This document shows, in pieces, positions 1 through 36,050 of a stretch of DNA of 36,861 bases (position 1 is the first letter of the stretch; each line of letters opens with the position of its first letter). The position numbers and the translations under genes were made by a program. The notes below the pieces were generated by a model, which was given only the letters and a program-made list of their open reading frames with translations, did not search any database and had not been told where the DNA came from. The stretch comes from a virus. The DNA is taken from positions 1-36,861 of IMG/VR virus record IMGVR_UViG_3300020084_000041; one strand, written 5' to 3'.

Positions 1-1510
1 TATTAGGATCGCTGGCAGTTTTCTTGGAGGTTAGCTTTGATTTCATGCCTTTCATGCGAGCACAGAATGATGCTCTACGAGGATTACCTACTTTCTTTGA
101 AGGTGCTTTAAGATCACTTCCAGGATTCTCTCTCTCATAAGACTTTCTACCCTTTTCATTCAATCCACCTTTTTTATTTTTACCTTCCCTACGAGTCCAA
201 GCAGCACCTTCACCAATAACACCAATGTTTAAAAGATAATTCTTACGACGCTTTTCTGGAGTATCAAGCGTGGTATTCTCTTGAATATCCTCACCATCCA
301 TTTCATAATGAGCTACTTGAGTCTCAGAATTTTTTTTAGCTAATGGAAGTTGTGGGCCAGTTCTCTTTAAAAATTCTTTTTTCTCATTAGGATTGTCAGT
401 TCTTGAACCTTTATTATAAAGTTTTTGTGTTTTTTGTGCGTTTTTATGCCCCTCTGGATCAATCGGAGGTAACATTTGCTCATTTGCTACAATGTACCCA
501 GAGTTTGCACTGGTAACACATGGATAATGTGCAAGAACTTTTCCACCAGGATATACTTTTTGAACAGCATCGTTTACTTCTTGTTCAGTTGGTTGTGTTG
601 CTGTTGGAAAATAAATTTTTAATGTATACGTCTTTGCCATAAAACTAATCATAATTGTATACATTTGACCACGAGATTGAATTATTTTAACTGCTTCAGA
701 AACATCTTCATCACTTTGCATATATTCTGCTGCAGTGTCAATAAAATCTGCTGCTCTTGTAATTTTTGATTGAACCCAGGCAGGAATTTGTTGATCACCT
801 TTTTTAATTGATTTTCTAAGCATTGCTACTGCCCTTTCAATTTGATCAAACTCAACTCTTGCCATATACCCTTCTTCGTCTTTGATTTTTCCAGATGCAA
901 TTTCTTTATGATCCTCTGGGAAAAATTCCTCTGATTTATTACCCCAATTTTTAGCACCAGCTTTACGACACTTAACAAGTGCTCCTGATGCATATGCACT
1001 GGGCCAAACACTATATCTAGCTTTTACTTTATTGTAACAGGCATCTTTCTTGCCGCTACCTTTTCCCTTTACATCAGATTCTTCATTCATTTTTTTAATC
1101 CTTCCTTGACAGTGTGCTCTTTGAGAAAATCCTTTAGGGTTATCACAATCTATTGATTTCTTATATTTATTTGACCAATCTTCTTTCACTGATTTTTTCT
1201 TTTTCTTTTTAGGTTTATCTGTGGAAACATAAGTGGGTTTTGCTGCACCAGTCTTAGATTGTTGTCCAGGATCTGCTGCCTTCTTTCTTCTTGCGGCAGA
1301 TAGTCTTTCTGCCTTTGTCATACTTGCTCTCTTTGCAGAAGAAACGCACTTAGGAGTTCCTTCTCCTGGTTCATCACTCGCACATGTGCCACCTGTTACG
1401 ACATTAACCCAACCACCTTTACCATCCTTTGATTTAGATTTGCCAAACCAATCACGGAGACTTTCCTCATTCATTTCTTTTGTTTTTTCTTTTTTTAATT
1501 GCTCTTGCAT
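1..1510 (-). CDS. Cys/Lys-rich multidomain phage protein (DUF5872/DUF6321-like), 3' end cut by window edge
   Basis: The frame is open for 503 codons from ATG at 1510 to the left edge with no stop, so the C-terminus is missing. I chose this ATG because it lies 4 bp after the gp16 stop and has AGAGGA about 11 bp upstream; an internal ATG at 1474 (start MNEESLRDW) is the alternative. Seen in order: an N-terminal DWFGKS...GGWVNVVTGG segment with two Cys (residues about 13-100, DUF5872-like); small Cys modules with IDC/AHC and DACYNKV...VKCRKAGAKNWG; a helical stretch with IPAWVQSKITRAADFI; a segment starting MAKTYTLKIYF that looks like a separate domain; and a C-terminal part with KNYLLNIGVIGEGAAWTR...FCARMKGM (DUF6321-like). 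Such modules recur in T4-like cyanophages, but their function is unknown to me. The domain names are from memory. The protein is very basic, so nucleic-acid contact is possible. It sits where the large terminase usually follows. Confidence 0.8.
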   Translation of the reverse strand, partial: MQEQLKKEKTKEMNEESLRDWFGKSKSKDGKGGWVNVVTGGTCASDEPGEGTPKCVSSAKRASMTKAERLSAARRKKAADPGQQSKTGAAKPTYVSTDKPKKKKKKSVKEDWSNKYKKSIDCDNPKGFSQRAHCQGRIKKMNEESDVKGKGSGKKDACYNKVKARYSVWPSAYASGALVKCRKAGAKNWGNKSEEFFPEDHKEIASGKIKDEEGYMARVEFDQIERAVAMLRKSIKKGDQQIPAWVQSKITRAADFIDTAAEYMQSDEDVSEAVKIIQSRGQMYTIMISFMAKTYTLKIYFPTATQPTEQEVNDAVQKVYPGGKVLAHYPCVTSANSGYIVANEQMLPPIDPEGHKNAQKTQKLYNKGSRTDNPNEKKEFLKRTGPQLPLAKKNSETQVAHYEMDGEDIQENTTLDTPEKRRKNYLLNIGVIGEGAAWTRREGKNKKGGLNEKGRKSYERENPGSDLKAPSKKVGNPRRASFCARMKGMKSKLTSKKTASDPN

Positions 1511-33013: not shown

Positions 33014-35287
33014 ATGAAGGATCTTACGGAAGCCTATAAAGAAATTTATCAGCTTGATGAAGTTAAATTTGCAAATGTTGGTGCTCTAGCATCAAATGTG
33101 ATGAGAATGCCAGGTGGTGCTACTCCTCCTAAGAAGGATGAACCAGTTGCTAAAGATACGCCTGCGCCCACTCCAGCAGCCGCTACAACGCCTGCTCCTT
33201 CAGCAATGGATCAGTGGGCAAAGGCAAATCCAAAGCTTGCTGCAGCGGCTGCTGAGAGGGCTCGTACTCGTGGTACAAGTGAGACTGATAATCCTCTCAT
33301 GAAGGATATGAGAGCTAATCTTCCAGCACCTGCAAAGGCACAGGATCCAAACTTCCAGAGCATTATGAAGTCTGGTAAGTACGGTGATCAGGGGTATCAG
33401 AGTTTAACGCAGAATCCTAATGTAAGAGCAACAGCGCCTGTCACATCACAGAACGGAAAAGCAGCACAACCCAAAGTAGCCGCATCAGCACTTCAGCAAG
33501 TCATGGCAGCAAGCCAAGCCGCAGCAGCCTCAATTAATAATGATCCAAGAGCACAAGCCTTTGATACCTCCAAGTATGGTTTCTCAGGTAAAACAACTCC
33601 AATCACACCTAGAAAGCCTCTACTTCGCACACCACTCAGAAACTCCTATGATTACGGACAGATGGACTCACAACAACTCACATCGCTTCTGAATGCTTAT
33701 AGTGAAATGTATCAAGATAATATTGAACCAGAAGGTGAACAACTTGATGAATTTTTAGGAAGAGCAATTGATGCAGCTGCTGCAAAAGTTGGGCCTGTTA
33801 TTGATAGAGGAGTCAATGCTGTATTTGGGAAACCAAAACCAAGACCAATATCATCATCTCCAACCCCAGCAACAAGACCTGTTGCACCTACACCTGCTGC
33901 CACTGCAAAACCACAACCAACTCAACAACAAGGAAATTATGGAAATGTTGGATCACTTGGAAATTTTGGTGGAAATTTAAAATATGTTGTAGATAGAGCA
34001 AAAGAAAGAAATCAAATGCTGAATCAATCTTACCAACCAGAAGGTGAACAACTTGATGAGTTTTTGTTTGGACCATCAAAAGTAACTCCAAAGGGCGGAC
34101 AATTGTCAGGTTCAAAAGCGCCTGTAGAAGTTGATAAAAAATATACTGCACAAAAACAAGGACAACTTGTAAATGTGCAGTATGATAAGGGAGGAAATAG
34201 AAAAGTAACTCCTATGTCTCCTGCTGAGAGAGGAGCTGCTGCTCTAAAACTTAGACTAAGTGGTGGTGGAGCATCTAGTCCATCAATGAATCAATATCAA
34301 ACTCAATCATTTGAACCAGAAGGTGAACAGATTGATGAGAAGTGCTGGGATGGTTATACGAAAAAAGGAATGAAGACAATGTTTGGAAAAAGATATCCAA
34401 ACTGTGTGAAGAAAAAAGCAGTAACTTCTGAGGAGGTTGAGGCTTATGATATTATTCTTGATCATATTCTCTCAGAAGGACTCGCAACAAGTGTAGAGAA
34501 TGCTGAGAAAATTATGAGCGTGATGAGTGATACCTGGATGCAGGGTATTCTTGAGGACTGGAGGGTAGGTTTGAAAATTCCCCTTGGAAGAAGCAGCAGT
34601 GGTCTTCAGGGGCCTATAGGTGTTTATGGTGGATACTCAACCCCTATTGGATCTAGTGGTACTCAAGCAGCAGTAAATGCTAATCTGGAGTATGGTGATA
34701 TTCTTAAGGCAAGAACTCCAGAAACTGCTGTAGATCAAGGACTTACAAATTTGCAGACTGGAGCACCAATTCCTAAATCAGATGTAAGAAAAGGTTTTAC
34801 AGGAGGTCTGGATGCTAAGATTTCGGGATCTCTTGGATCTGGTCAGCAGCCTGCACCAAAACCAGTAACTAAACCAGCACCAAAACCAAAACCAGAAGAC
34901 CCCAAACCAGCAACAGCAACAACTCCAGCAGCAGCACCAGCACCAGCACCAGTACCTCCGCCACAAGATGATGGCAGAAGAGTTGGATTACCTGATGATG
35001 GGCGAACTACTACATTCACACCTCAAGGTAATGATCAACTACTACATTCACACCTCAAGGTAATGATCAGGAACGTCAAGTTCGTGGTATTACAAATGCT
35101 GCTAATGGAACTGGTGATCGACAAACTGGAATGGGAGTTATCGGTCCTCAGAGTTTTGTTAGAAATAATCCCGTTATGCCTGGATACTAAACGAAATCAC
35201 GCAGGTTTGACACTCTTGCTTGGGAGATACTTCTTCTTAAACTCGTCAAAGCCTTCTGGGGGTGCTGAGGGCTTTGGTTGTGGTTGA
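33014..35287 (+). CDS. Repeat-containing prohead/core polyprotein-like gene, 3' end frameshifted
   Basis: As read, the product is 757 residues. It begins MKDLTEAYKEIYQLDEV, with L-T-E and L-D-E that fit the T4 prohead protease consensus (L/I)xE. The octapeptide PEGEQ(L/I)DE recurs, ending at residues 246, 349 and 442. Then come a Cys/Lys module (KCWDGYTKKGMKTMFGKRY, about 443-461) and a helical module with YDIILDHILSEGLATSV (L-S-E at 486-488) that I recall from other marine T4-like phage proteins. The linkers are rich in Ala, Pro, Gln and Lys, and PAPKP repeats lie near 615-660. After residue about 675 the sequence changes to an unlikely hydrophobic tail, because a 32-bp tandem duplication (35006-35069) shifts the frame. 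Without one copy the frame ends at 35190 with a 714-residue product whose tail reads QERQVRGITNAANGTGDR and ends NNPVMPGY. It is probably a head-core or internal protein precursor. Confidence 0.7.
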   Translation: MKDLTEAYKEIYQLDEVKFANVGALASNVMRMPGGATPPKKDEPVAKDTPAPTPAAATTPAPSAMDQWAKANPKLAAAAAERARTRGTSETDNPLMKDMRANLPAPAKAQDPNFQSIMKSGKYGDQGYQSLTQNPNVRATAPVTSQNGKAAQPKVAASALQQVMAASQAAAASINNDPRAQAFDTSKYGFSGKTTPITPRKPLLRTPLRNSYDYGQMDSQQLTSLLNAYSEMYQDNIEPEGEQLDEFLGRAIDAAAAKVGPVIDRGVNAVFGKPKPRPISSSPTPATRPVAPTPAATAKPQPTQQQGNYGNVGSLGNFGGNLKYVVDRAKERNQMLNQSYQPEGEQLDEFLFGPSKVTPKGGQLSGSKAPVEVDKKYTAQKQGQLVNVQYDKGGNRKVTPMSPAERGAAALKLRLSGGGASSPSMNQYQTQSFEPEGEQIDEKCWDGYTKKGMKTMFGKRYPNCVKKKAVTSEEVEAYDIILDHILSEGLATSVENAEKIMSVMSDTWMQGILEDWRVGLKIPLGRSSSGLQGPIGVYGGYSTPIGSSGTQAAVNANLEYGDILKARTPETAVDQGLTNLQTGAPIPKSDVRKGFTGGLDAKISGSLGSGQQPAPKPVTKPAPKPKPEDPKPATATTPAAAPAPAPVPPPQDDGRRVGLPDDGRTTTFTPQGNDQLLHSHLKVMIRNVKFVVLQMLLMELVIDKLEWELSVLRVLLEIIPLCLDTKRNHAGLTLLLGRYFFLNSSKPSGGAEGFGCG
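33725..34339 (+). repeat. Three copies of PEGEQ(L/I)DE coding repeat
   Basis: The copies lie at 33725-33751, 34037-34060 and 34313-34339. Each is preceded by a Tyr/Gln-rich segment (AYSEMYQDNI, NQSYQ, YQTQSF) and followed by a new domain. The DNA of the copies is nearly identical around the core, so the repeat is visible at base level. The first copy resembles the protein's own N-terminus (AYKEIYQ...LDE). Confidence 0.8.
35006..35069 (+). repeat. Exact 32-bp tandem duplication causing a frameshift
   Basis: Two perfect adjacent copies (35006-35037 and 35038-35069) start ACTACTACAT and end GTAATGATCA. The unit is not a multiple of three, so the second copy shifts the reading frame. Removing one restores a frame that ends at TAA 35188-35190, 6 bp before the convergent gene's stop. 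Confidence 0.95.
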
Positions 35288-35346
35288 GGCTTATAAGGCT
35301 GATAAGGAGATCCGCCTGACTCCATAAAGGATTGAAAGGTTTTCAT
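35197..35346 (-). CDS. Small Pro-rich protein (49 aa) with capsid-targeting-like N-terminus
   Basis: The ATG overlaps the stop of the upstream ART-like gene (TAATG), and the TGA lies 6 bp from the corrected end of the convergent gene. The product begins MKTFQSFMESGGSPYQPYKP, continues with Pro/Gln/Lys and an EGFDEFKKKYL helix, and ends SVKPA. The first residues parallel the ART-like protein (MKTYSQFLDEA) and T4 internal protein starts (MKTYQEFIAE). The P3 residue before E would be F instead of L/I, so cleavage is uncertain. Function unknown; a packaged peptide is plausible. Confidence 0.65.
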   Translation of the reverse strand: MKTFQSFMESGGSPYQPYKPQPQPKPSAPPEGFDEFKKKYLPSKSVKPA

Positions 35347-36050
35347 TAGTCTGCTAAACGTGTATTGGCAATTCCATAACCAGGAGTTCCACCAACTTGA
35401 TAACGTCCTGTAGTTCCTGATGGTGATCCAACATTACCTAAAGAACTACTCATTCCTCTGGTAGATCTAATTTCTCTTCTAATCACAGATCTATTTTGAG
35501 GTTTTTTCATTGCAGTGGAAACTCTTTGTCGCAATTCTTGTTTTTGAGTACCTTGGAAGGTTATGGCACTTTGAGGTTTATCAGTAATATCATAACGATT
35601 TGCTCCTTTTGGAGACATTTGCACTATATTAAATGTATTTCCTCCTTTTTGTGCCGTCCATTCTCCACGTTGATCTCTTTGTGCTTTAACTTTATTGTAT
35701 GTACTTGTCGGTAATCTAAATGTACGCACCGCAGGACTTTCGCCTCTTTGAGATGCTCTTTGATTTGCATACATCTGAGCAGCAGGTCTTTGTGGCGTTG
35801 TATAAACTCCAGATCCTGTCATTTGGCGAGTGACATTTATATTAGTTCTCCATCCAGATCTAGAAATTTGTTGTGATGCTGGTTGAGTTGTGCCATGGTA
35901 GAGGCGAGTAAATGATGCTGATCTTGGGGCAGTACCAGTTCTTCTTGAAACTTGCTGTTTCAATGCTTGATTACGAAAGGCAGATCGTGCTGCTGCTTTA
36001 ATTACAGATGTTGCTAATGCTTCATCAAGAAACTGTGAGTAGGTTTTCAT
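35346..36050 (-). CDS. Putative ADP-ribosyltransferase-like protein with capsid-targeting N-terminus
   Basis: The product is 234 residues. The N-terminus MKTYSQFLDE|A matches the capsid-targeting peptide of T4 internal proteins (IPI/IPIII start MKTYQEFIAE), with L-D-E as a (L/I)xE prohead protease site. Residues about 48-115 look like a DT/PARP-type ART fold: RLYHGT (H52), then an ISRSGW segment, then GSGVYTTP (Y83) with AAQMYANQ behind it, then AVRTFRLP. These correspond to motifs 1 and 2 of the H-Y-E class; the third catalytic residue is not clear (Q166 in AITFQG is a candidate). The C-terminal 70 residues are basic and Gly/Ser-rich. Such enzymes move ADP-ribose from NAD+ to a protein, nucleic acid or small molecule; the target here is unknown. 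It starts 1 bp after the upstream stop and overlaps the 49-codon gene. It could instead be an inactive ART-fold protein. Confidence 0.6.
   Translation of the reverse strand: MKTYSQFLDEALATSVIKAAARSAFRNQALKQQVSRRTGTAPRSASFTRLYHGTTQPASQQISRSGWRTNINVTRQMTGSGVYTTPQRPAAQMYANQRASQRGESPAVRTFRLPTSTYNKVKAQRDQRGEWTAQKGGNTFNIVQMSPKGANRYDITDKPQSAITFQGTQKQELRQRVSTAMKKPQNRSVIRREIRSTRGMSSSLGNVGSPSGTTGRYQVGGTPGYGIANTRLAD

Follow-up and report, generated by a model that had tools for sequence, protein, structure and literature searches.

Extracts of the published accounts (PMC9026906, PMC9958956, PMC10052503) describe the processing of head proteins by gp21, the cargo that carries a CTS and the cutting of core proteins at several sites. 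According to the extract of PMC9026906, T4 gp21 follows the cleavage rule L/I-X-E, the T4 internal proteins (IPs) lose an N-terminal propeptide, and Alt also loses a C-terminal one. In the open-licence literature, we found no description of tandem cassette polyproteins of cyanophages. The window studied here (the whole stretch of DNA analysed, a virus record of 36,861 bases) is DNA of a T4-like cyanophage. It encodes a protein that, judged by its sequence, is a member of a modular "cassette" protein class of cyanophages and probably yields several small pieces by cleavage during head maturation. The features of its gene are listed below.

33014-35190, plus strand: gene for the cassette protein (714 aa in contig L002); frame broken in the window by a 32-bp duplication
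33014-33061, plus strand: N-terminal signal MKDLTEAYKEIYQLDE; 14.6 bits with an HMM of N-termini; predicted cut after E16
33206-33424, plus strand: module MDQWAKANPKLAAAA...SLTQNPN, residues 65-137, common to many environmental viral contigs
33662-33715, plus strand: weak internal copy resembling the N-terminal signal, MDSQQLTSLLNAYSEMYQ, residues 217-234; 1.2 bits
33728-33751, plus strand: separator 1, PEGEQLDE, residues 239-246; predicted cut after E246
34037-34060, plus strand: separator 2, PEGEQLDE, residues 342-349; predicted cut after E349
34316-34339, plus strand: separator 3, PEGEQIDE, residues 435-442; predicted cut after E442, in the register of the statistics given below
34340-34417, plus strand: CW module KCWDGYTKKGMKTMFGKRYPNCVKKK, residues 443-468, following separator 3
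34445-34555, plus strand: YDII module, residues 478-514, with E488 inside and a terminal predicted cut (after E514)
34556-35190, plus strand: C-terminal region; similar stretch in phage DSL-LC03, read by eye
35005-35068, plus strand: exact tandem duplication of 32 bp, frame-shifting (35005-35036 copied at 35037-35068)

The open reading frame starts at 33014 and extends to 35287 in the window only because of the 32-bp duplication. A contig that is 99.96% identical to the window (L002) is without it, and the product there has 714 aa and a C-terminal end NNPVMPGY, with a stop equivalent to window position 35190, the gene end already given by a sequence-only reading of this DNA. The duplication may be genuine or may result from misassembly. 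The same reading had labelled the gene a prohead gene, a name that database searches did not bear out: the 714-aa protein matched no Pfam family at E 0.1 and, among PHROGs, only families of unknown function. The nearest named relative of the phage is Synechococcus phage DSL-LC03 (Kyanoviridae), with DNA 76% identical over 53% of a 24.9-kb query. Its syntenic protein (WJZ47956, 577 aa, 40% identical in the alignment) retains the N-terminal signal and E16; the cut sites predicted for it are E16, E258, E364, and E403. Stretches similar to the C-terminal region are found in DSL-LC03 both at the syntenic site and in another gene, which has a CTS of its own (MKTYTEFISE/C).

The motif PEGEQ(L/I)DE occurs three times, as had been noticed from the sequence, with spacings of 103 and 93 residues (the EGE matches begin at residues 240, 343, and 436), and each copy does end in (L/I)xE. 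Among the open frames of at least 60 aa in the window, the cassette ORF alone matched the motif pattern. We define hxE as [LIVMF]-x-E, which is close to the T4 rule. The 714-residue protein contains seven such triplets: E6 and E16 within the N-terminal signal, E246, E349, and E442 at the three separators, E488, and E514. This total is what composition predicts (shuffle mean of 6.1), and it is the placement of the triplets, not their number, that is unusual. (L/I)-x-E, the mark of substrates of gp21-type proteases, stands at module boundaries of the window protein. E488 had been listed as a cut site; we did not count it as a likely one because it is inside the conserved YDII module (YDIILDHILSEG), with no preceding hxE signal. 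The triplet at E514 (GILE/DWRVG) was absent from that list. Cuts after E16, E246, E349, E442, and E514 would give post-signal pieces of 230, 103, 93, 72, and 200 aa, with predicted pI values of 9.2, 9.7, 9.3, 5.8, and 9.6, respectively, the predicted piece 443-514 not being basic.

Searches with the window ORF (tblastn) matched 28 phage records, all of cyanophages, and most matches were short and centred on the block EGEQIDE-KCWDGY..PNCVKK. A 92-aa query at E up to 10 gave 369 records, mostly cyanophages, with many weak matches. Proteins from eight cyanophage records include strings of the same modules in differing order, for which we coined the names CW, DACY, WF, SIDC, and AAWT. The AAWT module is the start of Pfam DUF6321, a family for which we found no paper in the open-licence literature; DUF6321 and DUF5661 were the only Pfam families above the cut-off in ten scanned proteins. 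The module cores are basic (mean net charge of +5.7 to +13.9), and the 15 residues preceding them are slightly acidic (-0.4 to -2.4). A second cassette protein of the window (positions 2-1510, minus strand), with WF, SIDC, and DACY modules and DUF6321, adjoins the small terminase gene. In an 885-aa frame of another locus (L106), an independent cassette protein carries three YEPEGExhxE separators, each before another sequence.

To place hxE relative to the modules, we collected 327 and later 506 loci and took the 20 residues upstream of each module, dropping repeated or >50% identical 20-mers and contexts with fewer than 20 upstream residues; modules at most 14 residues from the first Met were counted apart. 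In these non-redundant contexts, hxE occupied one fixed register before the CW (70/79), WF (32/59), AAWT (19/33), and SIDC (14/17) modules, against 0.7 to 2.8% at each of the other registers. In a WF subtype with an SGD insertion, it lay further upstream (12/19). One of the queries contained EQIDEKCW, and matches that included upstream residues served to pick the phage records; without the loci from either source, the CW count was 64/71. For CW loci fetched solely by patterns inside the module, it was 42/44, and 24/26 after filtering at 35% identity, a filter that gave 39/48 when applied to all CW loci. With strict L/I at P3, the counts fell to 8/59 for WF, 10/33 for AAWT, and 2/17 for SIDC, P3 being mainly V or M before WF and SIDC. 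DACY had no single hxE register (29% at each of two offsets), and hxE was found anywhere in its 20 upstream residues in 87% of cases versus 45% when shuffled. In a boundary test of 169 cassette proteins made without hand-picked modules, hxE lay at most four residues from 41% of alignment-block starts and from 34% of block ends, versus 17% of random positions.

Other candidate signatures were not upheld. The YDII module as an hxE-bounded unit had the signal in only 2/12 contexts; hxE density is no discriminator of the family (19.9 per 1,000 aa in cassette proteins versus 18.2 in other ORFs); and aromatic residues before predicted cut sites reached at most 16% at any position in 135 contexts.

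The fixed register could reflect the structure of linkers or modules, such as the end of a helix, in a protein that is whole in the virion and has no protease sites. The same triplet, however, precedes four unrelated modules, and it agrees with the L-x-E site of the capsid protein. Moreover, it is mostly missing where a SIDC module opens the protein, being absent in 16/18 distinct forms (usually M-GWSxKYKKSIDC) against its presence in 14/17 internal contexts, and of the two exceptions, one is a complete CTS (MKTYKEFKEE-WSNK). For DPCW-type CW modules, hxE was found within nine residues upstream in 4/4 viral contexts and in 0/9 non-redundant contexts of genome contigs, the latter mostly small Bacteroidota frames. 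The structural reading draws on the WF modules, which mostly retain hxE at protein starts (MINE-EGLRDWF), so that it could there belong to the module; hxE also occurs within modules (GGLNEK in DUF6321, ILSEG in the window protein), and the triplet alone is therefore insufficient to define a cut. We consider this explanation unlikely; the sequence evidence supports putative cleavage at the separators. Genome contigs of Pontibacter species (L492, L494, L496, L499-L501, and L505) have short frames of 60 to 101 codons between stops that consist mainly of the CW module (DPCWKGYEQVGMK..VPNCVPE).

DSL-LC03 encodes a Peptidase_S77 homologue of gp21 (E 3.2e-36), a separate gp22-type scaffold, and gp23; no gp21 gene was seen in the 36.9-kb window. 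In gp23, the major capsid protein, L-x-E stood at the expected site in 9/9 cyanophages (in locus L507, it was missed by the search pattern and read directly), and by analogy with T4 it is presumably the cut site. T4-like CTS starts (MK[STN][FY]xxF-h-x-E) occur commonly among the fetched loci, and seven proteins that start CTS-like have a cassette module in their first 45 residues. A cytidylyltransferase-like (NMNAT-like) protein of P-TIM68 begins MKSFTSFFTE/A, and NMNAT was detected in S-SCSM1 virions, in which mass spectrometry identified 45 virion proteins (extract of PMC9602691). Beside the cassette gene, at 35346-36050 on the minus strand, the window encodes a protein with a T4-like capsid-targeting start (MKTYSQFLDE/A), a candidate for Alt-like cargo; its ADP-ribosyltransferase match is weak (DUF3990, E 5e-4; PARP, E 0.033; both below the Pfam cut-off). 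In small proteins of five other loci (L144, L231, L178, L207, and L275), the CTS precedes a sequence that duplicates the mature N-arm (PTNxxGxxGY...GPVAGxD) of the major capsid protein. A gene annotated "head maturation protease" in Haloarcula sinaiiensis tailed virus 1 overlaps, at NC_021471.1 8859-8948, a CW-like stretch (weak, E 3).

The cassette protein might also be a scaffold-like core protein that is shredded by gp21 and leaves the head like T4 gp22/gp67, its fragments having no later job. This seems distinctly unlikely, since phages keep and exchange the conserved, cysteine-bearing basic modules and the annotation of a relative in S-SCSM1 reads "virion protein." The gp22-type family PF25623 was not matched (no Pfam family at E 0.1), and gp22 is a separate protein in DSL-LC03. 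What speaks for it is T4 itself, where cutting turns the core proteins into several fragments, most of which do not stay in the head (extract of PMC9026906).

The sequence-only reading had taken the repeats for capsid-targeting peptides; in this version, every copy would import a domain of its own and would then be removed by cleavage. The resemblance of the N-terminal AYKEIYQLDE to the internal AYSEMYQ...LDE, both retained in DSL-LC03, is real but uneven: an HMM built from 17 other N-termini, with the window and DSL-LC03 excluded, scored the N-terminus at 14.6 bits, the internal copy at 1.2 bits, and the equivalent internal segment in DSL-LC03 at 6.5 bits. The N-terminal class EAYxx[VI]Y is nearly always at protein starts (45 N-terminal hits versus 1 internal at 8 bits or more, the training sequences of the model included). 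The N-terminal CTS peptide of T4 has the form MK[TS][FY]xxF-h-x-E, to which the window protein does not conform, its start (MKDLTEAYKEIYQLDE) belonging to another class. Internal T4-CTS-like strings numbered 6 in 49 cassette proteins, within the range of shuffled sequences (mean of 3.6, maximum of 7). PEGExxDE-type separators recur before 19 distinct downstream contexts, and conservation of the repeat count, proposed as a check, failed: the syntenic gene of DSL-LC03 has two copies (EPEGEQIEE and EPEGELVEA) versus three. Because the internal copy is weak and CTS strings are not enriched, targeting peptides are the weak half of that idea and protease sites the strong half, the latter upheld by site-like (L/I)xE ends before modules and their family-wide placement with controls. 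We hold repeated targeting to be very unlikely. The internal look-alike is possibly a fused former N-terminus; for a fusion of two genes at M217 there was no more than a hint, the best alignment to the N-terminus of another protein having only E 1.4. Less probable still is a founder effect, by which separator and module would move as one DNA block and the motif be inherited rather than selected: an 84-bp stretch that begins in the separator and enters the CW module shares 89% identity with S-SRM01, and P2 is D in 35/79 CW contexts, but upstream 20-mers entered the count only at <50% identity, E persists at P1 (73/79) while P2 varies and P3 varies among L, I, V, F, and M, and other modules show the same feature.

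On balance, we favour a virion-internal string of modules that would be cut at its separators by a gp21-type protease. The N-terminal signal would take the protein into the prohead core, where the activated prohead protease would cut after hydrophobic-x-E at the separator ends, that is, after E16, E246, E349, E442, and probably E514. Several mostly basic fragments would be released and would stay with the DNA or be ejected. PEGEQ(L/I)DE would then be a portable separator bearing the cut site, not a repeated targeting peptide. We infer the head location of the window protein, its cutting, and the fate of its fragments from these comparisons. Whether cyanophages have true capsid polyproteins, in which interchangeable small basic modules with protease-site separators allow one gene to yield several DNA-condensing or injected proteins, is a more tentative proposal, to which we give a little less than an even chance. 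If the cuts occur, many "hypothetical" cyanophage genes could be read as coding for precursors from which internal head proteins arise, their mature ends being predictable; the T4 internal-protein idea, with a single propeptide in each protein, would be extended to interchangeable cassettes; and a simple rule would identify the cargo that these phages bring into cyanobacteria.

Among known systems, the polyvalent proteins of phages and plasmids are also multidomain and probably delivered, and their processing has been proposed; in the extract of PMC5512222, they have enzymatic domains and zincin-like peptidases, whereas the 714-aa protein has no Pfam domain at E 0.1. Head proteins of SPN3US and phiKZ resemble the predicted substrate in having several prohead-protease cuts per protein. 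The cuts reported in the extract of PMC10052503, however, trim N-terminal propeptides at 13 of 14 sites, the remaining one being the C-terminal propeptide of the protease itself, and that extract mentions no tandem modules. T4 gp22/gp67 share the several L/I-x-E cuts in one chain that are predicted here, but their fragments mostly leave the head (extract of PMC9026906), while the cassette modules show conservation as well as shuffling, and the annotation of one relative is "virion protein." With T4 IPI-III and Alt, which have a CTS and are processed by gp21, the window protein would share the nature of a virion-internal cargo and an N-terminal propeptide ending in hydrophobic-x-E; it differs from them in its several predicted sites between many modules and in an N-terminus of another class.
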